From positions 806,001 to 870,000 of the forward strand of contig NZ_CP029347.1 of assembly GCF_003143555.1 (NCBI RefSeq): 64,000 nt of DNA, read 5' to 3'. Source of the stretch: Saliniradius amylolyticus. GTDB lineage: Bacteria; Pseudomonadota; Gammaproteobacteria; Enterobacterales; Alteromonadaceae. This document shows, piece by piece, positions 4,996 through 20,538 of the stretch (position 1 is its first letter; the number at the start of each line of letters is the position of its first letter). A model generated the notes under the pieces. The model was not told where the DNA came from. It saw only the letters and a program-made list of their open reading frames with translations, and ran no database searches. Both the position numbers and the translations under genes were made by a program.

Positions 4996-6522
4996 CTATT
5001 GGACAATTAACTCAATACCACAATGCCTGAGATTCATCGCGGTCGTTTCTAAATCCGCCTGTACCAATGTCGACGCTGCCAGCCAGTTGTCGGTAAAGGT
5101 CAGCTCAAGGCGCTGCTCTTCAGCCTTAGCTGTAATTTGGGGCAGTACGTTGTCCTGACGCTGAATGTGCAGGGTAGTGGCGATTTGTATTAAGGCTATC
5201 AGTCGGTGGACGGATTCTTTGCTGTAGATGACAAATTCCGGTACGTCCTCGCTGCGTACCTTCTTTCGGTGGAAGCGGGCCAGAGTGGCCAATAGCAGCT
5301 GTTGCTCCTGATTAAAGCCGGGAAGATCGGTATGGTTAAGAATATAGGCCGAGTGATGTTGCACGCGCCGCGAATTGATTTGCAAGCCCACCTCGTACAG
5401 TAAAGCGGCCCAGCCCAATAGCTGGCGTGCTTCATTATCGAGCTGCCAACTCTTCTTGACCTGATCGAACAGCTCAAGACTGGTTTGCAGTGCGCGCCGG
5501 GCCTGATCCGTATCCACATCATAACGAATGGCGAGACTCTCGGCGGTGCGTTCGCGAATATCGCCATGGGCCAGTTGTTCTTCCATCTCGTAAATCACAC
5601 CTTCACGCAAGGCGGCCGACGAAAACTGCAGTGACTGGATGCCCAGACTTTCGAAGATCCCGGTTAGCACACAAAGCCCGGCAGCGATGACCGGCTTGCG
5701 GTCTTCTCCGACGCCGGTGAGATTAAGTTGGTCAATATGACCGGCCTGGATACATTGTTGTCGTAATTGGTTCAATTCGTTGAGTGTAAGAGTATCGGGC
5801 GGTAAGTCAGGGTTCAATGACTGGGCGGCACTGGTTAACGCTTTTATGGTTCCGGAAGTGCCAATGGCTCTGTCCCAGCCGAGTTTACGGTATTTGTGCT
5901 GGATAAACTCCATCTCTTGTTGCACAGCGGTCATGGCTTTATTAAAACGCTTTTCGGTTAGCTTACCCTTGGCAAAATAGCGCTGATTAAAACTGACACA
6001 GCCCATTTGAATGCTGCGCATCAGCTGTGGCTGAAAACCGGTGCCAATTATAAACTCGGTGGAGCCGCCGCCGATGTCGATCACCAGATGCTGTCCTTTA
6101 GCGTCGGTGGTGTGAGCCACACCTTGATAGATAAGGCGCGCTTCTTCCATGCCAGAAATGATCTCGATAGGGTAGGGAATGACTGACCTGGCGGCCTTAA
6201 TAAAGTCTCTGGCATTAGTGGCATTGCGCAGGGTGTTAGTGGCAACGATGCGCACCGAGTCGGGGTGAAACCCTTGCAGACTATCGGCCATCTTAGCCAG
6301 TGCTGCCAGTCCACGCTCAATGGCCTCGGGCTCCAGAATATTGTCGGCATTTAATCCTTCGGCCAGCCGGACTCGCTCTTTGACCCGATGTAATATCTGA
6401 ACACTGCCGGCGATCACCCGTGCGATGACCAAATGAAAGCTGTTGGAACCGATATCCAGGGCGGCGACGTGGGTGGCCTCACGACTTTCCACATCCTCGA
6501 AGACCCGGCTGAGTTCTGACAT
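4996..6522 (-). CDS. ppx: Exopolyphosphatase (Ppx/GppA family)
   Basis: Degrades polyphosphate from its ends, releasing phosphate; GppA members hydrolyse pppGpp. The 508-residue protein shows the actin-like ATPase fold motifs: LDIGSNSFHLVIA near the N-terminus, the ISGMEEARLIYQG segment, and LVIDIGGGSTEF. A C-terminal HD-like helical region follows. The ATG overlaps the ppk stop codon as TAATG, indicating coupled translation in a ppk-ppx operon. Operon position favours Ppx over GppA, but sequence alone does not separate them. Confidence 0.92.
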   Translation of the reverse strand: MSELSRVFEDVESREATHVAALDIGSNSFHLVIARVIAGSVQILHRVKERVRLAEGLNADNILEPEAIERGLAALAKMADSLQGFHPDSVRIVATNTLRNATNARDFIKAARSVIPYPIEIISGMEEARLIYQGVAHTTDAKGQHLVIDIGGGSTEFIIGTGFQPQLMRSIQMGCVSFNQRYFAKGKLTEKRFNKAMTAVQQEMEFIQHKYRKLGWDRAIGTSGTIKALTSAAQSLNPDLPPDTLTLNELNQLRQQCIQAGHIDQLNLTGVGEDRKPVIAAGLCVLTGIFESLGIQSLQFSSAALREGVIYEMEEQLAHGDIRERTAESLAIRYDVDTDQARRALQTSLELFDQVKKSWQLDNEARQLLGWAALLYEVGLQINSRRVQHHSAYILNHTDLPGFNQEQQLLLATLARFHRKKVRSEDVPEFVIYSKESVHRLIALIQIATTLHIQRQDNVLPQITAKAEEQRLELTFTDNWLAASTLVQADLETTAMNLRHCGIELIVQ

Positions 6523-8621
6523 TAATCCTGTGACTCTTGCGTTAGCTTTTCCTGATTCTTCAGATAATGGTAGATCTCTACCTGAGAACGCAACTTTTTT
6601 CGGTTGCCCCTGGGCTCGTAAGGATTAGTCTGGTGCTCGTCGATGACTCTGGCCTTGGTGGTATCCCGACACTGAATGGTAAAGATATCGATAATACGTT
6701 GCGCCAGTCTGGCATCATAGACCGGACACCCCACCTCCACCCGGTTGTCCATATTTCGGGTCATCCAGTCGGCTGAAGAAATAAAGACTTTGCGATCACC
6801 GGCATTTTCGAAAATGGCCACCCTGGGGTGTTCCAAAAAACGGTCCACGACACTGGTAATGTAGATGTTATCGCTTAAACCTTTGACTCCCGGTTTTAGG
6901 GAGCACATGCCGCGGACTATGGCTCGAACTTCGACGCCAGCCTCACTGGCCCGATAGAGATCGTCGATAAGTGGTATATCCACCAGATTATTGACCTTCA
7001 GCCTGATACCAGCTGGCAAACCTGCCCGCGCATTTTGGATTTCCTGGCGGATCAGTAGCTGGATCTTGGTCCTGGCATTGATGGGTGAGACTTGCAGGTG
7101 CTGGAATTTGTAACGTCGGTAAGGATACTGAATAAACTCAAACACATTGACCGCTTCCTGAGCCAGCTCCTGATGGCGGGTGAATAAGCTGAAGTCGGTA
7201 TAAATCTTGGCGGTACTTTCGTTAAAGTTACCGGTACCAAAGTGGGCGTAGTGGATAAGCTCGCCGTTTTCCTCACGGCTGACAACACAGAGCTTAGAGT
7301 GAACTTTCAGAGTGGGAATGCCCAGAATCACCTTTATCCCGGCGTCGGTCATGCGCTTCGACCATTCGATGTTGGCCTCTTCATCGAACCGGGCTCGCAG
7401 CTCCACCATCACGGTAACTTGCTTGCCGTTGTGAACCGCGTCCATCAGTGAATTAATAATGCGTGATTTATTGGCCACCCGGTAAATGTTCAGTCGGATA
7501 TGGCGGACGTTCGGATCGAACGCGGCCTGGCGCACCATTTCCGTCATGTGCAGGAAGCGATGGTAGGGGTAGTAAAGCAGAATGTCGCTATGGCGGATGG
7601 CGTCAAATACCGTATCGAAATCGGCAAAGGCGCGGGCATTAATCGCTGGCAGCTTTTTGTTTTCCAGATAGTCCCGGCCCGGATTGGGAAAGCCGATAAA
7701 GTTCTTAAAGTTTCGATAGGCACCGCCGGCAATAAGGCTGTCGTAGGACGACATTTGCATTTCCTTGCGCAGAAAGCGCAGCATGTCTTTAGGCATATCC
7801 GAATCGTGGATTACCCGCACCGGCTCGGAAATCAGCCGTTGCTTCATGCTCTCGGACATCTTTTCCACGTAGCTCTCGTCGATCTCGTCGGTAATGGAAT
7901 ACTCGGCATCCCGAGTCATCTTAAAGGAGTAGGCATCCAGGTGATCAAAATCCACAATGCCCTTAAAGATGGTTTCCAGACAAAGGTCGATAATGTCATC
8001 CAGGAGGATAATATACTTGTGCTTGCGGCTTTTCTGCGGCGGCAGCTGGACAAAGCGTGACATGTATTCAGTGGGGACTTCGATGACCGCATACTGAGTT
8101 GGCTTGTCGACTTTGTGAATGCCCACTAACAGATAGGTGTCGGTGTCGTTAAGCCTGTCCACCAGATTCACCCGGTTGGTGACGATCACAGGGGCGATAT
8201 ACCGCAGAATCTTATTTTTAAAATAGTCTCTGAGCCAGTGGGCCTGATAGTCGTTGATATCCTCTTTTTGCAAAAGATGGATGTTGTATTTTTTCAGGCG
8301 CGTCACGACATCATTATAGATGCGCTCGAAGCTCTTGGTCATCTCAATGACCTTAGCCTGGATCTGATCCATCAGATGCTTGGTTTCTTCGGCCGCCTCG
8401 ATGTTTTTTTCATTAAGGTGGATGTAAATCTGGCGTTTCACATCAGCCACCCGCACTCGGTAGAACTCGTCCAGGTTGTTAGAGTATATGCCCAGAAAGC
8501 GGATACGTTCGACAATAGGGTTGCGCTTGTCGGCGGCCTCTTGCAGCACGCGCTCGTTAAAGGCCAGCCAACTGAGTTCTTTGGGGTAATAGGGGCCAGT
8601 TTTTAAGGTCATCCAATACAT
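6522..8621 (-). CDS. ppk: Polyphosphate kinase 1
   Basis: Reversibly polymerises the gamma-phosphate of ATP into polyphosphate. The 699-residue protein begins with the PKELSWLAFNERVLQEA region of the N-domain. The autophosphorylated His is in LKVHSKL (about residue 441), and a second conserved His lies in DRFLEHPR. Length is close to that of E. coli Ppk (about 690). The ATG at 8621 has a weak ribosome-binding site, and an in-frame ATG nine bases downstream is an alternative. A minus-strand Pho-box-like repeat lies 52 bp upstream, so phosphate-starvation control is likely. ppx follows with overlap. Confidence 0.95.
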   Translation of the reverse strand: MYWMTLKTGPYYPKELSWLAFNERVLQEAADKRNPIVERIRFLGIYSNNLDEFYRVRVADVKRQIYIHLNEKNIEAAEETKHLMDQIQAKVIEMTKSFERIYNDVVTRLKKYNIHLLQKEDINDYQAHWLRDYFKNKILRYIAPVIVTNRVNLVDRLNDTDTYLLVGIHKVDKPTQYAVIEVPTEYMSRFVQLPPQKSRKHKYIILLDDIIDLCLETIFKGIVDFDHLDAYSFKMTRDAEYSITDEIDESYVEKMSESMKQRLISEPVRVIHDSDMPKDMLRFLRKEMQMSSYDSLIAGGAYRNFKNFIGFPNPGRDYLENKKLPAINARAFADFDTVFDAIRHSDILLYYPYHRFLHMTEMVRQAAFDPNVRHIRLNIYRVANKSRIINSLMDAVHNGKQVTVMVELRARFDEEANIEWSKRMTDAGIKVILGIPTLKVHSKLCVVSREENGELIHYAHFGTGNFNESTAKIYTDFSLFTRHQELAQEAVNVFEFIQYPYRRYKFQHLQVSPINARTKIQLLIRQEIQNARAGLPAGIRLKVNNLVDIPLIDDLYRASEAGVEVRAIVRGMCSLKPGVKGLSDNIYITSVVDRFLEHPRVAIFENAGDRKVFISSADWMTRNMDNRVEVGCPVYDARLAQRIIDIFTIQCRDTTKARVIDEHQTNPYEPRGNRKKLRSQVEIYHYLKNQEKLTQESQD

Positions 8622-9220: not shown

Positions 9221-9378
9221 GGTTAACCTCTTAAGGAATAAGGTTGGGGTTTTTCCTTCACTATAATGCAGGATTGGTACTAGCGCGAAATACTATCGTT
9301 ATTTCAACCGCTTAGTTTGCCTATGAATTCCCAGCGGGGTCAGTACAATGACAGTAGTTTTTTTGCAGTGGAGCCGAT

Positions 9379-11478
9379 GTGTCCAGGCTAAGCCTTTTTT
9401 CAAGCTCACATAACATCAGGCGGCAGCGACGGGATCGTTTGGCCCGGCGTGTTATCGCGGCGGGTGGTTGGATGGTGCTGGTGACCCTGGGCCTGTTAAT
9501 CTGGCACCTTGTGTATGTGGTGTGGCCGCTGCTTTACTCCCCCTCGGTGCAGATGCAGCAGCAATGGCCGCTACCCACACAGGCGAAAGTGCTGTTGCCC
9601 GGAGCTCAGGCAAATAACCAACCTGCCTTATTACTCAATGAAGACTGCCAGCTGTCATTGGCTGACCCACAAACCTGGCACACTCAGGCGCAGTTTCCGC
9701 TGCCGTGTTCGACTCGAGTGAAAGCAAGAGAGTACCTCGGCAGCCGCTATGTGTTTGAACTCAGTGGCGAAGGGGTACTGCGTATTATGCAGTTACGTCG
9801 CCGCGGCCAGGACTGGCAAAAGCAGCAGCGTGCGTCGTTTTATGCCCCCCACCAGGACATTGGGGGAAAAGACTGGCAGGTGGCCTTATCCGAACACTGG
9901 TATGGGCTGGCAGTAAAAACGGACAAGCACTGGGCGGTGAAGTGGGTGTCGCGCCATAATCCTTTGCAGAGTCATACTCAAAACCTGCCGGTGTCTGGAA
10001 AACTGACCTTGTTGCCGTCGCAAAATTTTGCACTGGTGGCCGACGGCAATAAGCTGCACCTGTTTGGAGCGAACCAGCAGAGTTATACATTCGACAAGCC
10101 AATTGAGTTTGTGCGGACCTTTGCTGACGATAAAGCTGTCATGCTGGGACTGGAAGGCGGGGAATGGCAGAAATGGTCGTTGGTTAATGAGCAGGGGCAA
10201 TTCAGGCTGCGCCAAAGCTATGTCAAACACCAACAGCAGACGCTACTCGACTTACAGACCATACCGGGGAAAGATCTACTGATATTGCTGACCGAGCAAC
10301 GACAGCTGGTGTTGCTTCTCGGCACTACGGGAGAAATATTGCTGCGCCAGTCACTGCCCCAGAATGCGGACAAGGTGTATTCGGTGGGGGATTCGCTGCA
10401 GGTATGGGACAGTAAGACGATGCAACGTTGGCAGATTCGGGACGCCGATTCCATTGTCAGTTTTGAGAGCTTGTGGCAGCCGGTATTGTACGATGGCTAC
10501 GCCCAGGCCGATTATGTGTGGCAATCCACAACCGCCAATGATGAGATTTCGGCCAAATACAGTCTGGTCCCTTTGGTGATCGGTAGTCTTAAGGCGGCGT
10601 TGGTGGCGCTTTTAGTGGCGGTGCCACTGGCTTTGGGGGCGGCTGTTTATACCGCCTATTTTGTTCCCCAGCGGCTGCGTAACTGGTTAAAGCCGGGCAT
10701 CGAAATGCTGGAAGCTATTCCTTCCGTGGTCATTGGTTTTATCGCCGCCATCTGGTTGACGCCGGTGGTGGAAGAATACTTGTTTGGTTTGATGCTGTTT
10801 TTGTTGAGTCTGCCATTTGTGATGGTATCGGCGGCCTTAAGTCAGCGCAGTATCGCCAAGTGTTTACCTCCACGTTGGCAGACGGGCTGGGAACTGCTGC
10901 TATTGATACCAGTACTGGCACTGTTGTTGTGGTTATGTTTAAGCGCGGGCAATGATTGGCAGCCTGAGGTTTGGAACCAATGGGTGGGCAACTACGCGCA
11001 GGACAGCCAATACAGTAGCAAAAATGCCATCGTGATTGCTTTGGCGTTGGGGATTGCCATTGCGCCGAGTATCTATTCGCTGGCTGAGGATGCTATCTAT
11101 GAAGTGCCGTCTCATCTTCGCCAAGCTTCTCTCGCCCTTGGCGCCACACGCATTCAGACACTGAGTCGGGTGGTGTTGGTCACCGCCTATCCCGGTATAT
11201 TCTCGGCGGTGATGTTGGGCTTATCGCGCGCTTTTGGTGAAACAATGATTCTACTGATGGTCACCGGTAATACGCCGGTGCCGGACTGGGACTTGTTTAG
11301 CGGCATCCGCACTCTGACCGCCAATATCGCCATTGAGCTTCCCGAGTCTAAGGTTGGCAGTATTCATTATCGCATTTTGTTCTTTACCGCCTTGCTGTTG
11401 TTTGGCTTTACCTTTTTGGTCAATACACTGGCTGAGTTAATTCGCCGCCATCTGCGGCGGCGTTATCAGAGGGTCTGA
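9379..11478 (+). CDS. pstC: Phosphate ABC transporter permease PstC, long form
   Basis: Inner-membrane permease subunit of the high-affinity phosphate importer. At 699 residues it is more than twice the size of E. coli PstC. One N-terminal transmembrane helix (about residues 24-46) is followed by a large soluble region (about 50-390) that looks like beta-rich, propeller-like blades. The permease domain (about 394-699) contains the cytoplasmic coupling loop LALGATRIQT and the RAFGETM segment. GTG start with GGAG upstream. pstA follows after 2 bp. The extra domain is inferred to be periplasmic from the single preceding helix; its role is unknown. No pstS is adjacent. Confidence 0.9.
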   Translation: MSRLSLFSSSHNIRRQRRDRLARRVIAAGGWMVLVTLGLLIWHLVYVVWPLLYSPSVQMQQQWPLPTQAKVLLPGAQANNQPALLLNEDCQLSLADPQTWHTQAQFPLPCSTRVKAREYLGSRYVFELSGEGVLRIMQLRRRGQDWQKQQRASFYAPHQDIGGKDWQVALSEHWYGLAVKTDKHWAVKWVSRHNPLQSHTQNLPVSGKLTLLPSQNFALVADGNKLHLFGANQQSYTFDKPIEFVRTFADDKAVMLGLEGGEWQKWSLVNEQGQFRLRQSYVKHQQQTLLDLQTIPGKDLLILLTEQRQLVLLLGTTGEILLRQSLPQNADKVYSVGDSLQVWDSKTMQRWQIRDADSIVSFESLWQPVLYDGYAQADYVWQSTTANDEISAKYSLVPLVIGSLKAALVALLVAVPLALGAAVYTAYFVPQRLRNWLKPGIEMLEAIPSVVIGFIAAIWLTPVVEEYLFGLMLFLLSLPFVMVSAALSQRSIAKCLPPRWQTGWELLLLIPVLALLLWLCLSAGNDWQPEVWNQWVGNYAQDSQYSSKNAIVIALALGIAIAPSIYSLAEDAIYEVPSHLRQASLALGATRIQTLSRVVLVTAYPGIFSAVMLGLSRAFGETMILLMVTGNTPVPDWDLFSGIRTLTANIAIELPESKVGSIHYRILFFTALLLFGFTFLVNTLAELIRRHLRRRYQRV

Positions 11479-11480
11479 GC

Positions 11481-13037
11481 ATGGGAATCCTGAACCGCCA
11501 GAAAAACGATTTACCCCTGATGCTCAGCGGCGTGCCGGCGGCGTTATTGCTGATGGTGATTTTATTGATTGCCGGGGTCATACTGGCCTATGGAGTCTCC
11601 TATTTCTGGCCCCAGCCTTTGTATGAAGTGCGTTATGAACAAGGTGGTACTACTCAGTCTGTATTTGCCAAGGTGCAATCCCGTGACTATCGCAGTTCAG
11701 AGGAGCACAGTCACTGGGTCATGAGTGGTGCCTTGCTGGAGCAGTTTGGTGCCCAGCAGTATATTGTCGAGAGCCGCCGTATTATTGATGCGCGAAGACC
11801 ACCGGAACTGACCGATATTTTGCTACGTAACGGCAATCGTCTATACGCTAAGCTACTGGCGGGCTATCAGGGGCCGCAGCGCCTGTCAGTGGAGCAGTTA
11901 CCGGAATTACTAAACAAAGTGTCGGCCCGGGTCCGTCAGGTCGAGGATTTAAAGCAAGACCAGCTGGGACCCATTCACCAGCAGCTCGCTCAGATGGAGC
12001 GTCGTGGCGTGGCCCAAGAGGCCCCCGCCCGGCAGAAACTTGCTCAACGTTTTGCCGAGCTTCAGGAGCAGATTCAACGCAAGGAGCGGGCGCTGGCTGA
12101 GTTCCGATTAAGTCTGATGGGGGCCGATGGCAGAGAGTTTAGTCTGCCGCTGGCTTCAGTGGATGATTACTGGCTGCTTAACCGCCTGGATGTACTGGAT
12201 AAGTTTCAGGTCTTTCTGACCCGGCTTTGGCACTTTGTCAGCGAGGGACCGAAGAGCTCAAACGATACCGGAGGCGTCTTCCCGGCCTTGTTCGGTACGG
12301 TGGTCATGGTTTTATTGATGACCGTGCTGGTAACGCCACTGGGCGTGATTGCGGCGCTCTATTTGAGTGAGTATGCGCCAGATAACGGACTGACCTCGCT
12401 GATCCGCATCGGCGTTAATAATCTGGCGGGCGTACCTTCTATCGTTTATGGTGTGTTTGGCTTGGGCTTCTGGGTGTACATCGTGGGCGGTCAGATCGAC
12501 GAGTGGCTGTTCAGTGACCACCTGCCCGCGCCGACCTTCGGTGCGCCGGGATTATTCTGGGCCTCGCTGACCATGGCCATGCTGACCTTACCCGTAGTGA
12601 TTGTTGCCACTGAAGAAGGCCTGCGCCGGGTGCCCAAGTCGCTTCGCCACGGTAGCTTTGCGCTCGGGGCTACCAAGTTTGAAACTATCTGGAATACGGT
12701 GCTGCCGATGGCAAGCCCTGGCATTATGACCGGCATGATTCTGGCGATTGCCCGTGGGGCCGGTGAGGTGGCACCGTTGTTACTGGTGGGTGCTGTTAAG
12801 TTTGCGCCGAGTTTGCCGGTAGACGGAGAATTTCCCTATCTGCATCTGGACCGACAGTTTATGCATCTTGGAGTATTGATTTACGATGGTGCTTTTCACA
12901 GCAATCATTTTGCCCAAAGCGGCTCGATGATGTTTGCGACCTGTTTGCTTTTGCTGTTGATCGTGGTGGTATTAAATGTGGCGGCAATTCTGGTACGGGC
13001 GCGACTGAGGGCGCGTTATCAGGCGTTGATAAGGTAA
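11481..13037 (+). CDS. pstA: Phosphate ABC transporter permease PstA, long form
   Basis: Second permease subunit of the phosphate importer, 518 residues against roughly 300 in E. coli. A transmembrane helix near residues 15-40 is followed by an insert containing a likely coiled coil (about 147-213, rich in Gln, Glu, Arg and Leu). The permease domain (about 259-518) has the coupling loop [10 protein letters not shown] and [14 protein letters not shown]. It starts 2 bp after the pstC stop, and pstB follows after 4 bp. Both permeases are enlarged in the same way, which suggests their soluble inserts act together, for example with a substrate-binding protein or sensor. That is inference. Confidence 0.9.
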
Positions 13038-13041
13038 GTGG

Positions 13042-13872
13042 ATGGATAATAGCAAACCCTTGTTTGATTATTTTTCTCTGGTTCAACCGGAGGTGGATCT
13101 TGAAGCTTTGTCACCGGAGCAGATCTCCGTGGAGGTCAAGGAGCTTAGCCTCTATTTTGACAATAACCAGGTGTTGGAGCGTATTGGCATGAGTGTGCCG
13201 AAACATCAGGTTACTTCCCTGATCGGACCCAGTGGTTCAGGCAAGTCCACATTGCTTAGCTGTTTTAATCGCCTCAATGACCTGGAGCCCGGCTGTAAAG
13301 TTGAGGGTGAAGTGATCATTGATGGAAGAAATATCTATGACCGGCGTGAGGATGTTGCGCGCCTCAGACGCCAGGTGGGCATGGTCTTTCAAAAGCCCAA
13401 CCCGTTTCCAATGTCGGTGTATGAAAATCTGGTTTATGGTCTGAAAATTCGGGGAATCAAAGATCGACGTCAGCTGGATAACGCGGCCGAGAAGGCCCTG
13501 AAGGATGTGGCTTTATGGGATGAGGTGAAAGACCGTTTATTCGACTCTGCACTGACCTTGTCTGGCGGCCAGCAGCAGAGACTGGTGATTGCCCGGGCCA
13601 TTGCGCTGGAGCCAGAGATTCTGTTACTGGACGAGCCAACCTCGGCGCTGGACCCGATTTCCACGCTGACCATCGAAGAGCTGATCAACCAACTAAAATC
13701 GAAGTTTACCGTTCTGATTGTGACCCACAATATGCAACAAGCGGCAAGGGTGTCAGACTTCACCGCCTTCTTGCACGAGGGGCGTCTGGTGGAGTACTCC
13801 GATACCAACCGTTTGTTCACCCGGCCCAGACAGGAACAAACCGAAGAATACATTACAGGGCGTTACGGCTGA
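13042..13872 (+). CDS. pstB: Phosphate ABC transporter ATP-binding protein
   Basis: Cytoplasmic ATPase that powers phosphate import and takes part in PhoR signalling. The 276 residues include Walker [10 protein letters not shown] (about 63-71), signature LSGGQQQR and Walker [13 protein letters not shown], with the PstB-specific [12 protein letters not shown] after the Q-loop. The N-terminus has about 20 residues more than E. coli PstB. The stop overlaps the phoU start (TGATG). Confidence 0.97.
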
Positions 13873-14588
13873 TGGATAACATTAAACTCAACACCCACAT
13901 ATCAGGCCGCTTTAACCAGGAGCTGGAGAACCTGCGTAACGCCGTGCTGACTATGGGCGGGGTCGTGGAGCAGCAGCTGTGTGATGCGGTGGTTGCCCTT
14001 CGGGATAATAACGCCGGGCTGGCAGAAAAAGTGGTGGTGAACGATCAGACCGTCAACGCCATGGAAGTGCAGATTGACGAAGAGTGCTTGCGTATCATCG
14101 CCAAGCGCCATCCGGCCGCCAGCGATTTACGCCTGGTAATGACCATTAACAAAGTGACCGCCGATATCGAGCGCATTGGCGATGATGTGGAGAGGATTGC
14201 GGGGTTGATCGTTAAGCGAACCTTGCCGGTGTCGGCCGATATCAAAAATGGCATGGTGGCGACCGGCAATCAGGTGATGGAGTTGTTTCGTCAAACTTTG
14301 AATGCCTTTGCCCGTATGGATGCGGAGGCAGCACTTGAGATTCATATGCAGGATCAGGACATCGATGAGCGCTACAAGCAACTGTTGATGCAGGCCGTTA
14401 CCGAGATGCAACAGGAACGGGAGTCGATGCATCAGTGGCTGGAGATCCTGTGGGCCATGCGCTCTCTGGAGCGAGTCGGGGATAGATGTAAGAATATCTG
14501 TGAGTATGTGATTTACTTAGTGCAAGGTAAGGATATTCGCCATGCTTCACGTCATGAGATTCGCGACAAGCTCAATGAGTTACGCTAG
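13872..14588 (+). CDS. phoU: Phosphate signalling protein PhoU
   Basis: A 238-residue helical protein of two three-helix PhoU repeats. Each repeat has its metal-binding motif region: DEECLRIIAKRHPAASDLR with RIGDDVERI in the first, and RSLERVGDRCKNICEYV in the second. PhoU mediates repression of the PhoR-PhoB system by the Pst transporter when phosphate is ample. The start codon overlaps the pstB stop, so production is coupled. This is the last gene of the pst unit. Confidence 0.96.
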   Translation: MDNIKLNTHISGRFNQELENLRNAVLTMGGVVEQQLCDAVVALRDNNAGLAEKVVVNDQTVNAMEVQIDEECLRIIAKRHPAASDLRLVMTINKVTADIERIGDDVERIAGLIVKRTLPVSADIKNGMVATGNQVMELFRQTLNAFARMDAEAALEIHMQDQDIDERYKQLLMQAVTEMQQERESMHQWLEILWAMRSLERVGDRCKNICEYVIYLVQGKDIRHASRHEIRDKLNELR

Positions 14589-14609: not shown

Positions 14610-14627
14610 TTGTCACAAAAGTGTCAT
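14610..14627 (+). promoter_or_regulatory. Candidate Pho box 1 upstream of DUF47-pit
   Basis: TTGTCAC-AAAA-GTGTCAT: two 7-mers 11 bp apart with an A-rich spacer, matching the PhoB direct-repeat layout and oriented toward the DUF47 gene. It starts 22 bp after the phoU stop. Confidence 0.75.
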
Positions 14628-14661
14628 ATTTAATGTTGTACCATACGCGCCGCGTTGATGG

Positions 14662-14679
14662 TTGTCACAAAACTGTCAT
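14662..14679 (+). promoter_or_regulatory. Candidate Pho box 2 upstream of DUF47-pit
   Basis: TTGTCAC-AAAA-CTGTCAT, nearly identical to box 1 and closest to consensus in this window. A partial third 7-mer (CTGAAAT) follows at the next 11-bp step. It sits 66 bp upstream of the GTG start. Confidence 0.8.
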
Positions 14680-14744
14680 GCAACTGAAATATTGCACTTT
14701 ACAGTGATAGTGTATGATTCGCTCGAAATAAAAGGGTCAGTATA

Positions 14745-15431
14745 GTGCCATTTATGTCTAACAGTTCGTTTCTTGACGTATTCGCCAAGTCGCCGCTGAA
14801 ACCACTTGAGGAGCACATAAATCTTGTGCATAAGTGCAGCCAGGGCTTGTTACCTTTCTTTGAAGCCGTCTTTAAGCAAGATTGGTCAGCCGTAGAAAAA
14901 GCTTATGAGAGCATCGCCGATCTGGAGCGCGACGCCGATGATCTGAAACGAGAGCTCAGAGCTAATCTGCCTGCCGGTATCTTTATGCCGGTTCAGCGCC
15001 ATGATGTGCTGGATTTGCTCAGTCAGCAGGACAAGATCGCCAACCGCTCCCGCGACATCGCCGGACGGGTGTTTGGCCGTGAATTGCCGATTCCGGCTGA
15101 GATCAAAGAAACCTTCCTTACCTATTTAAATCGTTGCCTTGACGCGACACGCCAGGCCAAGGTCGTGACCAATGAACTCGATGAGTTGTTGGAAGCGGGT
15201 TTCCGCGGTCGTGAGGTTAAGCTGGTGGAAGAGATGATCGCCGAGCTAGACCAGATCGAAGACGATACCGATAAGATGCAGATTAAGCTGCGTCGTGACT
15301 TAAGAGCCCTTGAGGCCAATTTAAATCCCATCGACGTGATGTTCCTTTACAGCGTCATCGAATGGATCGGCGATCTTGCCGATATCTCCGAGCGAGTCGG
15401 TTCCCGACTGGAATTAATGCTGGCAAGTTAA
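14745..15431 (+). CDS. DUF47 (TIGR00153) PhoU-like accessory protein of Pit
   Basis: A 228-residue all-helical protein related to PhoU. The FAKSPLKPLEEH start, LPAGIFMPVQRHDVLDLL and RVGSRLELML end match the TIGR00153 family that sits next to Pit transporters. The family is thought to modulate Pit activity. A GTG at 14745 has AAGGG eight bases upstream, and an ATG at 14754 is possible but worse placed. pit follows after 12 bp in an apparent two-gene operon. The tandem Pho boxes in front imply induction by phosphate starvation. Confidence 0.9.
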   Translation: MPFMSNSSFLDVFAKSPLKPLEEHINLVHKCSQGLLPFFEAVFKQDWSAVEKAYESIADLERDADDLKRELRANLPAGIFMPVQRHDVLDLLSQQDKIANRSRDIAGRVFGRELPIPAEIKETFLTYLNRCLDATRQAKVVTNELDELLEAGFRGREVKLVEEMIAELDQIEDDTDKMQIKLRRDLRALEANLNPIDVMFLYSVIEWIGDLADISERVGSRLELMLAS

Positions 15432-15443
15432 GGGCACAGTTTT

Positions 15444-16712
15444 ATGGATATTATCAGTACGTACGGCTTTATGCTGGTCGCGACGGCGGCCGTGGTTGGT
15501 TTTTTGATGGCCTGGGGGATTGGCGCCAATGACGTGGCCAATGCCATGGGTACCTCTGTGGGGTCAAAAGCCTTAACCATCAAACAGGCGATCCTGATCG
15601 CCATGGTCTTTGAATTTGCCGGGGCCTACCTGGCCGGCGGCGAGGTCACCTCCACCATCAGAAAAGGCATTATCGACAGTGCCTTTTTTGTTGACCAACC
15701 GGAATTGCTGGTGTTCGGCATGATCTCTGCCTTGTTGGCAGCCGGTATCTGGCTGGTTATCGCCTCCTGGTTGGGCTGGCCTGTGTCCACCACCCACTCT
15801 ATTATCGGTGCTATTGTTGGTTTTGCTGCCGTTGGCGTCAGCACTGAGGCGGTAGAGTGGGGCAAGGTGATCGGCGTTGTCGGTAGCTGGGTCATCACTC
15901 CGGCCATCTCGGGCTTTATTGCCTATCTCATCTTTATGAGTGCACAGAAGCTGATCTTTAATACCGACAATCCGCTGCAGAATGCCAAACGCTATGTGCC
16001 ACTTTATATGGCCTTTGCCGGCTTTGTAATGTCGCTGGTTACCATTAAGAAGGGCCTTAAGCACGTCGGTATGGAAATGGGCACCGCCGAAGGTTACGCC
16101 TGGGCTGTCGGTATCTCAGTATTAGTAGCACTGGTGGGTAGCTACTTTATCCGCGGTTTGAAGACCGACGCTAAGGCCGACAAGAAGATGCATTACGCCA
16201 GTGTCGAGCGGGTATTTGCGGTACTGATGATTGTTACCGCCTGCTGTATGGCTTTTGCCCATGGCTCGAACGACGTGGCCAACGCCATTGGTCCTTTGGC
16301 TGCCGTGGTATCGGTAGTGCATAACAACGGTGAGATTGCTGCCAAAGCGCAACTCGCCTGGTGGATACTGCCTCTGGGTGGTATCGGCATCGTAGCGGGT
16401 CTGGCTATCTTTGGTCATCGCGTGATTAAGACCATTGGTAAGGGCATTACCCATTTGACTCCCAGTCGTGGTTTTGCCGCCGAACTGGCTGCAGCCACAA
16501 CCGTAGTGGTCGCTTCAGGTACCGGTTTGCCAATCTCCACCACACAAACCCTGGTGGGGGCGGTGTTAGGTGTTGGTATGGCGCGCGGTATCGCTGCTTT
16601 GAACCTAAGCGTGGTGCGTAACATTGTGGTTTCGTGGGTAGTCACTCTGCCTGTGGGAGCGGTGTTGTCCATCATGTTCTTCTTTATGCTTAAGGGGATC
16701 TTTATCGCCTAA
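15444..16712 (+). CDS. pit: Inorganic phosphate transporter, Pit family
   Basis: A 422-residue inner-membrane transporter that moves metal-phosphate complexes with protons or sodium. It has the two inverted signature motifs, GANDVANAMGTSVGSKALT near the N-terminus and GSNDVANAIGPLAAV in the second half, within about ten hydrophobic segments. The intervening loop is moderately long and polar. It is co-oriented with the DUF47 gene and ends in a strong terminator. E. coli pitA is not a Pho target, so the upstream Pho boxes mark a different logic. Confidence 0.95.
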   Translation: MDIISTYGFMLVATAAVVGFLMAWGIGANDVANAMGTSVGSKALTIKQAILIAMVFEFAGAYLAGGEVTSTIRKGIIDSAFFVDQPELLVFGMISALLAAGIWLVIASWLGWPVSTTHSIIGAIVGFAAVGVSTEAVEWGKVIGVVGSWVITPAISGFIAYLIFMSAQKLIFNTDNPLQNAKRYVPLYMAFAGFVMSLVTIKKGLKHVGMEMGTAEGYAWAVGISVLVALVGSYFIRGLKTDAKADKKMHYASVERVFAVLMIVTACCMAFAHGSNDVANAIGPLAAVVSVVHNNGEIAAKAQLAWWILPLGGIGIVAGLAIFGHRVIKTIGKGITHLTPSRGFAAELAAATTVVVASGTGLPISTTQTLVGAVLGVGMARGIAALNLSVVRNIVVSWVVTLPVGAVLSIMFFFMLKGIFIA

Positions 16713-17782: not shown

Positions 17783-17810
17783 TTGCATTTATACGTAAAG
17801 CCCCTATTAT
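17783..17810 (+). promoter_or_regulatory. Sigma-70-like promoter of the DUF2490 gene
   Basis: TTGCAT (17783-17788), a 16-bp spacer and TATTAT (17805-17810). A start site near 17817 would precede the reverse Pho array and the coding start. Confidence 0.55.
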
Positions 17811-17825
17811 GCGCAGCCATGAAAT

Positions 17826-17854
17826 ATGACAGTTTTATGGCATTTTTATGACAT
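17826..17854 (-). promoter_or_regulatory. Triple Pho half-site array, reverse orientation, over the DUF2490 start
   Basis: On the minus strand ATGTCAT, ATGCCAT and CTGTCAT are separated by AAAA spacers in strict 11-bp register. The array lies downstream of the predicted promoter, and its last site contains the start codon of the next gene. Bound PhoB would block transcription rather than activate it, or activate leftward transcription. Confidence 0.65.
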
Positions 17855-18459: not shown

Positions 18460-18480
18460 TCAGGCCTGACAGGCTAGAAT

Positions 18481-18512
18481 AAAAAAACCGCCCTTAGCCC
18501 GGCGGTTTTTTT
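18481..18512. terminator. Intrinsic terminator after DUF2490 gene
   Basis: AAACCGCC/GGCGGTTT stem with an 8-nt loop, an A-run before and a T-run after, 21 bp after the stop. Confidence 0.88.
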
Positions 18513-18545
18513 ATGTTTGTTTGTCAGTGAGAAGGTGGTTTGCCG

Positions 18546-18563
18546 CTGTCATCAGATTGTCAG
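18546..18563 (+). promoter_or_regulatory. Upstream Pho box of the MSP130-like lipoprotein gene
   Basis: CTGTCAT-CAGA-TTGTCAG: two 7-mers 11 bp apart on the plus strand. The second lies exactly 88 bp (eight 11-bp steps) before the first site of the main array, so the two clusters fall on the same helical face. Confidence 0.65.
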
Positions 18564-18644
18564 GGAGCAAAACGTTAGGTTGAAAATTGAACGCTTAGGG
18601 ACAAATACGACGGTTGTATTAAATTCGGTGCGGTTGATGGAGTT

Positions 18645-18695
18645 GTGTCAATAAGATTTCAAAAAGTTGTCACGACGTTGTCGTTGTGCTGTCAA
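18645..18695 (+). promoter_or_regulatory. Five-site Pho half-site array before the MSP130-like gene
   Basis: Five 7-mers start at 18645, 18656, 18667, 18678 and 18689, each 11 bp apart: GTGTCAA, ATTTCAA, TTGTCAC, TTGTCGT and CTGTCAA. Three are close to the PhoB consensus CTGTCAT and two are weaker. A GATGTT at 18706-18711 could serve as the -10 element, and the coding start follows at 18748. Confidence 0.72.
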
Positions 18696-18747
18696 TAAAT
18701 CTTGGGATGTTAGTGGTCTTAACACTCCAAGTAACCGAGACAGACTA

Positions 18748-20538
18748 ATGACAAATGAAAACCGAATTAAACCAGCACTTCTTGCGCTATCTGTAGCGTT
18801 TGCATTATCAGGCTGTGCCTTGGAAGGCGATGATGGCCTACAGGGGCAACCAGGCCCTCAGGGGGAGCAGGGACCTCAAGGTGACCAGGGACCCGCAGGA
18901 GATGATGCGGTTAAAGGGATTACCATGAAGGTGGTCGCCAGAACCATATTAAATCCAGAAGACCCCGAGGGAGCGGCGGAGATTGTACAGTACCATCCCC
19001 AGACGTTGACTGCTTATGCTATCAATAGCGCGGCCAGCACTCCGACCATTGCCATGATAGATATGACGACTGTCAGCAATGAGCAAGTCACCAACCCACT
19101 GACAGCCGACACCCTTAACTCTACCTCAATGCCACTGGAAACGGAGGTCAATGGCAAAACGCTAGTCGGTGCAAATAGTATTGCGGTGCATGGTGACTGG
19201 CTGGTAGTGGCGATGGAAGCCTCCCATGGTGTGCGTGGCGAGGTTTTGTTTTACAACGGCCTGAATGAAGGCAGTCCGGATTATGTGGGGGCGATTGAAG
19301 CGGGCTTCTTACCCGACATGGTGACGTTTACACCGGATGGGAGCAAGGTCATTGTCGCCAATGAGGGTGAGCCTAATGGGGATTTTAGTGAGGACCCTGA
19401 AGGTTCGGTGACCGTTATTGAATTAGTCGGCAGCGACCTCAGTGCTGCCAGTGTGACGGAGCTGGGTTTTCAGGCCTTCAACGATCAAAAAGAAGCGCTC
19501 AGTGCTATGGGCATGCATTTTCCAACGCCCAATGGCCGCACTATCAATGGAAATACCGTGGATAGTAGTGTCGCTCAGGACCTTGAGCCCGAATACATAA
19601 CGGCAACCAACGATATGGCTTATGTGACCTTGCAGGAAAACAACGGCCTTGCGATGATCAACCTCAATGACCTGTCGATACGCATTCAAGGCCTTGGCTT
19701 TAAGGATTGGTCGCGACTACAGATAGATGCGATGGAAGACGGTACAGTCAGCTTTGGTCAATACCAAAACTTGTATGGTGTATATATGCCAGACAGCATC
19801 GCCAGTTATCAATGGAAAGGCGCTGATTTTTTGGTAACGGCCAACGAGGGCGATGCGCGTGAATATTTCTTTGAGGTGGCTGATGAAGCTGAGTGCATCA
19901 CGGCAGGCGGTGTTGATTACGATGAAGATGATGGTTGTCTGAGCTACACCGATGAGGTGAAAGTTGAAGACTTAATTTTCGAGCCGGGTGTTGAGATCAG
20001 CGCCGATTTGTCTGATTTGAGAGTAACTCAGGCCTTGGGAGATGCCGATGGAAACGGAGAGTACAGTGCCGCTTATGCCTATGGAGCACGATCCTTTACC
20101 ATCTGGGATACGAACGGTCTGGTGGTATTCGACTCAGGCGATGATATTGAACGGATTACGGCATCCGTGCATGGCGATGCCTTTAATAACAACGACGATG
20201 AAAACGAGGGGGATTCCCGCTCAGAGAATAAAGGTGCAGAACCAGAAGCACTGACACTGGGGATGGTGGGTGAGAGAACCTACGCCTTTGTTGGGCTTGA
20301 GCGCATGGGGGGCATTATGATTTATGACATTACGAACCCCTACGATGCTCAATTCGTCGACTACCTGATTAACCGGGATCTTACAGAAGGGTTGGAGCCC
20401 GGTGATGGTATCGGTGATTTGGCTCCTGAGGGCATGAAGTTCGTGCCTGCTGAGGAGAGTGCTTCGGGCCAACCACTACTGATCGTGGGTAATGAGGTCA
20501 GTGGCTCGGTAACGGTTTGGCAAGTGGAGCAATACTGA
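18748..20538 (+). CDS. MSP130-like (choice-of-anchor I) lipoprotein with collagen-like stalk
   Basis: A 596-residue lipoprotein. The lipobox is LSGC with Cys23 and Ala at +2, which favours the outer membrane. Residues 27-53 form nine Gly-X-Y triplets (QGQPGPQGEQGPQGDQG core), a short collagen-like stalk. The rest is a large beta-propeller-like domain with FLPDMVTFTPDGSKVIVANEGEP and LVTANEGDAREY, signatures of the choice-of-anchor I family. Bacterial members are often labelled alkaline phosphatase and are homologous to sea-urchin MSP130. I chose the ATG at 18748 because the longer reading frame starts inside the Pho array and would bury the signal peptide. Enzymatic activity is not established. 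Confidence 0.82.
   Translation: MTNENRIKPALLALSVAFALSGCALEGDDGLQGQPGPQGEQGPQGDQGPAGDDAVKGITMKVVARTILNPEDPEGAAEIVQYHPQTLTAYAINSAASTPTIAMIDMTTVSNEQVTNPLTADTLNSTSMPLETEVNGKTLVGANSIAVHGDWLVVAMEASHGVRGEVLFYNGLNEGSPDYVGAIEAGFLPDMVTFTPDGSKVIVANEGEPNGDFSEDPEGSVTVIELVGSDLSAASVTELGFQAFNDQKEALSAMGMHFPTPNGRTINGNTVDSSVAQDLEPEYITATNDMAYVTLQENNGLAMINLNDLSIRIQGLGFKDWSRLQIDAMEDGTVSFGQYQNLYGVYMPDSIASYQWKGADFLVTANEGDAREYFFEVADEAECITAGGVDYDEDDGCLSYTDEVKVEDLIFEPGVEISADLSDLRVTQALGDADGNGEYSAAYAYGARSFTIWDTNGLVVFDSGDDIERITASVHGDAFNNNDDENEGDSRSENKGAEPEALTLGMVGERTYAFVGLERMGGIMIYDITNPYDAQFVDYLINRDLTEGLEPGDGIGDLAPEGMKFVPAEESASGQPLLIVGNEVSGSVTVWQVEQY

Follow-up and report, generated by a model that had tools for sequence, protein, structure and literature searches.

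A predicted PhoB promoter before a stalked choice-of-anchor I lipoprotein gene of Saliniradius amylolyticus, and a stalk module common to phosphatase-headed lipoproteins

Five head-to-tail half-sites, repeated every 11 bp, precede a lipoprotein gene of Saliniradius amylolyticus, and this array is very probably the operator of a PhoB-controlled promoter. The array was studied within a window, i.e., the whole stretch of 64,000 nucleotides that was analysed (positions 806,001 to 870,000 of contig NZ_CP029347.1). As a promoter, it is a strong instance of a switch that is already known. What is new here is a stalk module that is common to phosphatase-headed lipoproteins. The uncharacterised choice-of-anchor I family thereby gains a role in phosphorus scavenging that can be tested, in bacteria of marine type, for which the use of organic phosphorus matters, and the common stalk suggests a modular display of such enzymes outside the cell.

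The original prediction described seven CTGTCAT-like 7-mers separated by multiples of 11 bp, two of the five main sites being weak. Direct reading of the letters agrees with it exactly. The successive spacings of the seven 7-mers are 11, 88, 11, 11, 11 and 11, and the main block reads GTGTCAA (18645), ATTTCAA (18656), TTGTCAC (18667), TTGTCGT (18678) and CTGTCAA (18689). The half-site and -10 matrices used for scoring represent the E. coli consensus, and the controls are simple Markov models. With these matrices, the weak sites ATTTCAA and TTGTCGT score 4.4 and 4.6 bits, and the remaining three score 6.7–9.8 bits. The block thus holds at least two half-sites with a TGTCA core arranged as 11-bp direct repeats, as a Pho box does. 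A terminator-like hairpin comes after the upstream DUF2490 gene, so 18515–18747 is intergenic and lies before the next gene, that of the lipoprotein (Table 1).

Table 1. Features of the window discussed in the text (positions are those of the window).
Feature	Position	Strand	Basis
ppk (polyphosphate kinase) and Ppx/GppA phosphatase genes	4996..8621	-	family matches
Genes for two BPD_transp_1 permeases, ABC ATPase and PhoU	9379..14588	+	family matches
Pho half-sites before DUF47-pit (14610, 14621; 14662, 14673, 14684)	14610..14690	+	predicted PhoB promoter, 22.3 bits
Genes for DUF47 (PhoU_div) and a phosphate transporter of the PHO4 family (Pit)	14745..16712	+	family matches
Reverse-orientation Pho triplet over the DUF2490 gene start	17826..17854	-	22.2 bits
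Intrinsic terminator-like hairpin after the DUF2490 gene	18479..18514	+	14-pair stem, then T run
Upstream half-site pair CTGTCAT (18546), TTGTCAG (18557)	18546..18563	+	letters, 17.7 bits
Five-half-site Pho box array, 7-4-7 repeats	18645..18695	+	letters, matrix score, genome pattern scan, register conservation
Predicted -10 hexamer GATGTT, 10 nt past the last half-site	18706..18711	+	letters; spacing conserved in relatives
Lipoprotein gene, 596 aa, ATG at 18748	18748..20538	+	family matches, structure; lipobox by eye

At 33.8 bits, the main block is the strongest 11-bp chain in the window, and the runner-up reaches 22.3 bits. When the 234-bp region was simulated 5,000 times with a first-order Markov model, no chain exceeded 21.1 bits, and the maximum of 60 window-sized simulations was 19.4 bits. 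With gaps of 7–10 or 12–15 bp, the best chain anywhere in the window scores 16.3 bits. The array lies far above chance frequency. The two weak half-sites speak for chance repetition in an intergenic region, but none of the 5,000 region simulations or the 60 window simulations reaches the array score and the array is conserved across genera, which makes chance a practically negligible explanation.

The whole genome was scanned for four TGTCA cores at 11 bp with up to three mismatches, a pattern that does not rank every array in the genome. It gave three matches, and the reversed-pattern control of this genome-wide scan gave 0 and 0. Two of the matches are overlapping parts of the main array with two mismatches each. 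The third, with three mismatches, lies on the reverse strand at 311001–311038 of the genome (locus L080) and is, by this pattern, the second-best four-core Pho array in the genome. Its three good half-sites are separated from TACCTT by a 10-nt spacer. The ORF next to this locus encodes glucose-1-phosphate adenylyltransferase, which acts in glycogen synthesis, and starts some 400–470 nt downstream.

The promoter layout was compared among orthologs. Protein searches gave a match in 37 of 59 genomes, the own genome included, and in 19 named loci. The upstreams of 41 orthologs and the own one were tested after strand correction, with the most upstream in-frame ATG taken as the start codon of each ortholog. 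A near-duplicate (L010 of L009), three Bacteroidota loci (L023, L024, L027) and three loci with a short upstream or one truncated at the end of a contig (L017, L018, L020) were left out; the register analysis described below further leaves out the near-duplicates L011 and L022. In 31 of the 42 upstreams, an 11-bp half-site chain reached p≤0.05 when each sequence was tested against Markov simulations of its own, a count that includes the own one and two near-duplicate pairs, both among the named contigs. The same family contributes 17 (of 21 tested), other families within the order contribute 5 (of 8) and the named contigs 8 (of 12), to which the own one is added. The 11 upstreams that miss p≤0.05 include the closest orthologs by protein identity, those of Idiomarina (L009, L011). 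Controls of repeat length and strand, which use the same sequences and are independent of the Markov background model, point in the same direction. Forward chains of at least 15 bits occur in 18 of the 41 orthologous upstreams at gap 11; each of the remaining gaps between 7 and 15 gives 0–2 of 41, and the antisense strand, again with an 11-bp gap, gives 1 of 41. The comparison of orthologous upstream regions that had been proposed with the original prediction thus turned out in its favor, since 11-bp arrays are kept in many relatives.

In E. coli, the distance from a Pho box to the TAN3T/A -10 element downstream of it is described as 10 bp (PMC1906773). A TA exactly 10 nt past the last half-site is present in 25 of 40 orthologous upstreams (one row of the 41 ran off the end), and TAnnnT is present in 21. 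At other spacings from 4 to 19, TA occurs in a mean of 2 upstreams and in 8 at most (spacing 15). The own hexamer GATGTT stands at exactly 10 nt, though it is a poor match to TAnnnT/A, and a sigma-70 scan of the own region found no promoter. With 10 nt between the last half-site and the -10 element, PhoB would stand in for the -35 element.

For the analysis of registers, rows were anchored by the last half-site and the -10 element only, with a threshold of 12. This threshold was passed by 22 of 39 relatives and failed by 17; the own locus, with an anchor score of 11.8, fails it because of its weak -10. At the free registers 1–4, half-sites are present in 6, 9, 7 and 5 of the 22 rows, and off phase in 1–2%. 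Register 5 is filled in 1 of the 22 rows, and beyond it there is background. As the signal spans five registers and then stops, up to five half-sites are the design of this promoter family and no peculiarity of the window. Five half-sites are not exceptional, as several relatives have that number. In several rows, including the own one, steps 0, 2 and 4 are stronger than steps 1 and 3, a pattern that would arise from the pairing of a strong with a weak half in every 22-bp PhoB dimer site. Synteny as a general rule was dropped. Within the flanks of 1.5–4 kb, one relative (L041) retains part of the gene order pit-LysR-target-FabH, and FabH lies downstream in seven more.

The upstream pair is a different matter from the main array. 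Its own score was reached in 19 of 20,000 simulations of the 126-bp stretch in which it lies. As it is this unlikely by chance alone, the pair may bind PhoB, and it is probably a real, separate predicted PhoB site. The meaning that had been attached to its in-phase position 88 bp from the array found no support. It is improbable that the pair functionally extends the main array through phasing, by looping or by a PhoB filament. The pair is above chance and its distance is an exact multiple of 11, but a given spacing is a multiple of 11 with a chance of 1 in 11, and 88 bp of B-DNA, counted with 10.5 bp to the turn, make 8.38 turns. Registers 12 and 13, where the pair is positioned, are filled in 1 of the 22 anchored relatives each, and no second block of at least 11 bits above a main chain of at least 12 was present in the other orthologs tested. 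In the pit promoter, two half-site clusters are 41 bp apart and out of 11-bp phase. For want of conservation, and given the 1-in-11 phasing and the helical turns, the pair and the array were not accepted as one long array. Between them lies a near-perfect palindrome, AATACGACGGTTGTATT (18604–18620), of which the rest of the genome holds one copy with a single mismatch (G000 1327483) and four copies with two mismatches. It was rejected as a second operator, as an equally good palindrome occurs in 63 of 300 simulated regions.

The surroundings of the array are rich in phosphate genes. Forward chains of at least 15 bits stand before only three of the 29 gene starts tested in the window, namely the lipoprotein gene (33.8 bits), DUF47-pit (22.3 bits) and ppk (a half-site pair of 16.6 bits). 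From order and context, the permease-ATPase-PhoU cluster would be pstC-pstA-pstB-phoU. The stretch before the pstC-like gene (9221–9379) holds no forward Pho box (6.9 bits). Elsewhere, the genome encodes PhoB at 621848–622525 (368.8 bits, cut-off 296.2), and the ORF after it is PhoR (557.7 bits, cut-off 390), followed by a PstS-type gene; the genome of the array thus has both PhoB and PhoR. The one PhoA gene of the genome has no Pho box in the stretch fetched around it. With this gene and the pstC-like gene lacking a box, Pho-box scoring misses some expected members. PhoX (PF05787) gave no match in the own protein or in the own genome. Given that the genome shows no PhoX match and no box at its phoA, the main extracellular scavenging protein under Pho control may be this lipoprotein.

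The proposed control by PhoB is well supported by an activator layout that stands before the lipoprotein gene and is conserved, by the ppk-ppx, pstCAB-phoU-like and DUF47-pit genes in the window, and by the PhoB/PhoR pair in the genome. Direct-repeat binding is general in the OmpR/PhoB family, and the PhoB model has four further full-length matches of 174–199 bits and a fifth of 129 bits, all under the cut-off. Both facts would allow another regulator of this family to bind the array through its 11-bp direct repeats. Such a regulator is very unlikely, however. The half-sites have the TGTCA core described for E. coli PhoB sites (PMC4415409, PMC6194859), the strong forward arrays found elsewhere in the window sit at phosphate genes, and in relatives, arrays of this kind mark genes for PhoX, PhoA and phytase-like proteins. 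PhoB is thus the preferred regulator of the array.

A further set of three Pho half-sites, in reverse orientation, overlaps the DUF2490 gene start. In this region (17806–17854), a promoter-like TTGCAT-16-TATTAT, identified by eye, stands just before the triplet. PhoB possibly acts here as a repressor, by analogy with the antisense PhoB sites that are reported to repress at the -10 element of E. coli phoB (PMC6194859). The DUF2490 protein had no match in the other 58 relatives.

The product of the lipoprotein gene is composed of three parts. A signal peptide carries the lipobox LSGC (residues 20–23, read by eye). It is followed by a collagen-like GxxGxx stalk at about residues 27–53, in which nine triplets are visible, and by a choice-of-anchor I beta-propeller at about residues 58–595. 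The stalk matches Pfam Collagen with E 2.3e-4 and 21.3 bits, under the cut-off of 27.2. The propeller matches PF22494 with 290.7 bits (cut-off 32) over profile positions 10–488 of 489 and NF038117 with 429 bits (cut-off 300) over positions 1–458 of 458. Confidence in the predicted structure is high from about residue 57 onward, with a mean pLDDT of 87.7 overall, and comparison with solved structures shows that the head is a seven-bladed propeller. The encoded protein is a putative outer-membrane, surface-exposed lipoprotein. The fold was not usable as a guide to function, as generic seven-bladed propellers tie at Z of about 29–31 among the best 50 matches listed. Phosphotriesterase 5hrm, at Foldseek rank 10 and with a TM of 0.41 only, was likewise not used as evidence. 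In the choice-of-anchor I alignment, P348-D349 is invariant and P189-D190 is nearly invariant, and the many invariant acidic positions (EPE, NEGD and the Pro-Asp motifs) suggest a metal site. Among the invariant positions are the acidic E208, E280, E282, D349, E367 and E498 and the arginine R371. The library entries for PF22494 and NF038117 name no function, and a literature search on choice-of-anchor I, alone or with phosphate, found nothing.

The whole-protein search in relatives also gave N-terminal-only matches to other proteins. A profile of the lipobox and stalk module (the first 60 residues) is present in 39 of 59 genomes. Heads were counted for 58 module matches with E up to 2e-8, weaker ones being left out. 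The heads are choice-of-anchor I (24, labelled by position from the protein search), PhoA (12), PhoX (6), phytase-like (4), imelysin (4), NHL (2) and others (6), the last being two outer-membrane cytochromes, one spondin-like head, one DUF5122 and two proteins without a named head. Pho boxes lie directly before 5 of the 6 PhoX genes and 3 of the 4 phytase-like genes; the exceptions, without a significant box, are PhoX L063 (p=0.07) and phytase-like L116 (p=0.49). The stalked PhoA genes (L066, L068, L069, L132-L138, L140, L161), of which 11 of 12 have a DUF7151 domain, are without a significant box of their own, and all 12 are second behind another phoA, a plain one. The first phoA of each pair has a Pho box in 12 of 12 cases (p≤0.01), and all 12 are PhoA by Pfam. 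Units with other heads have no box directly before the gene (0/12) and one box in 12 when the upstream gene is counted; in four of these 12 units (L070, L076, L118, L123), the stretch fetched holds no same-strand ORF of at least 120 aa upstream. In the spondin-N-like pair L115/L154, of which the second is stalked, an 11-bp chain of 14.5 bits (p=0.005) stands before the first gene.

When boxes before the upstream operon partner are counted as well, in both groups, 20 of the 22 units with PhoX, PhoA or phytase-like heads are Pho-boxed vs 1 of the 12 with other heads (Fisher p=3.0e-6); when only boxes directly before the gene are counted, the numbers are 8/22 vs 0/12 (p=0.03). As the units with other heads are mostly without a box, the head, not the stalk alone, predicts the Pho box. 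TA at the 10-nt spacing is found in 1 of 5 PhoX arrays, 2 of 3 phytase-like arrays and 9 of 12 phoA promoters, and the fixed layout is therefore clear for choice-of-anchor I and phoA and unclear for PhoX. Among the papers listed in a literature search, mostly judged from the listing, no collagen-stalked phosphatase appeared; one of them, PMC7916636, contains "collagen-like" once.

In relatives, the anchor and stalk carry Pho-boxed PhoX, PhoA and phytase-like heads, and for this reason, the choice-of-anchor I head is probably a metal-dependent phosphoesterase or a partner of one. Phytase-like proteins align with the choice-of-anchor I profile along the propeller (hhalign 99.9%, E 4.9e-34). Taken with the phosphatase-type Pho-boxed heads, this alignment leads to the expectation of a phosphoesterase or a direct partner. 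Whether the head is enzymatic is evenly balanced in our judgement. The broader proposal, that the choice-of-anchor I propeller is a surface phosphate-starvation phosphoesterase and one of several interchangeable Pho-boxed stalk heads in Alteromonadales, may equally well be right or wrong. Two Pho-boxed, stalked proteins of about 840 aa (L073, L074) have a choice-of-anchor I-like propeller followed by a phytase-like domain.

Under the same PhoB-controlled promoter, the propeller might instead be non-enzymatic, i.e., an adhesin, an S-layer-like protein or a phosphate-binding scaffold. This alternative is rather unlikely, but it has points in its favor. The stalk weakly matches models of collagen-like adhesins, in each case far below the cut-off, and the top match of the PDB profile search is a surface-layer propeller (1l0q, E 9e-11). 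ElpS of Caulobacter crescentus is described as raising phosphatase activity while being judged not itself an enzyme, and is thus read as an activator (PMC2996285). Against a non-enzymatic head, all Pho-boxed stalked heads from other families in relatives, except for a spondin-like one, are of phosphatase or phytase-like type, and the invariant acidic positions would be those of a metal site.

With a phosphoesterase head, the system could work as follows. In low phosphate, phosphorylated PhoB would cover the five head-to-tail 11-bp half-sites, replace the -35 element and recruit RNA polymerase. The transcript would be translated into the lipoprotein, whose lipid anchor and collagen-like stalk would carry the seven-bladed choice-of-anchor I propeller, and the head would free phosphate from organic phosphorus outside the cell. 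The binding of PhoB and the response to phosphate are predicted here from the layout of the promoter.

The promoter resembles E. coli PhoB promoters in its TGTCA half-sites and 11-bp direct repeats (PMC4415409, PMC6194859) and in its last half-site, which lies 10 nt before the predicted -10 element (PMC1906773). It differs from the E. coli minimum of two half-sites by five contiguous half-sites, an extra pair 88 bp upstream and a weak -10. The protein differs from the PF22494 and NF038117 library entries by its collagen-like stalk, lipobox and Pho box. With the stalked PhoX lipoproteins (PF05787), boxed in 5/6 units, it has the N-terminal module in common. PhoX is described as a propeller phosphatase (PMC11098088), but the PhoX propeller is six-bladed, whereas the choice-of-anchor I head is seven-bladed. 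Homology of the head to PhoX was rejected, since hhalign aligns only the N-terminal 52 columns, i.e., the stalk module.

Synechococcus PCC 7942 is a strain of S. elongatus, and PF22494 is present in the S. elongatus control genome. PhoA-aty, an atypical alkaline phosphatase of Synechococcus PCC 7942 and algae, is reported as first found in the Synechococcus strain (PMC11098088). According to the description, conserved D and E residues abound in it, PhoX and phosphotriesterase have its Pro-Asp motif in common with it, and relatives occur in proteobacteria and marine animals (PMC4548154). The choice-of-anchor I head, compared by description only, has such Pro-Asp motifs as well (P348-D349, P189-D190). 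Membership of PhoA-aty in the PF22494 family is a lead. Choice-of-anchor I is a widespread family, to which the animal protein MSP130 also belongs. According to the sources, MSP130 is involved in biomineralisation (PMC4237138, PMC4897951), and an origin by horizontal transfer has been proposed for it (PMC4237138). If the head is a phosphoesterase, this would bear on the role of the animal relatives in skeleton building, given the link to MSP130. A further likeness is to ElpS, an outer-membrane surface lipoprotein that is described as being made on phosphate starvation, with no other functional domain reported for it (PMC2996285). Compared by description only, both would be surface lipoproteins tied to phosphate starvation.
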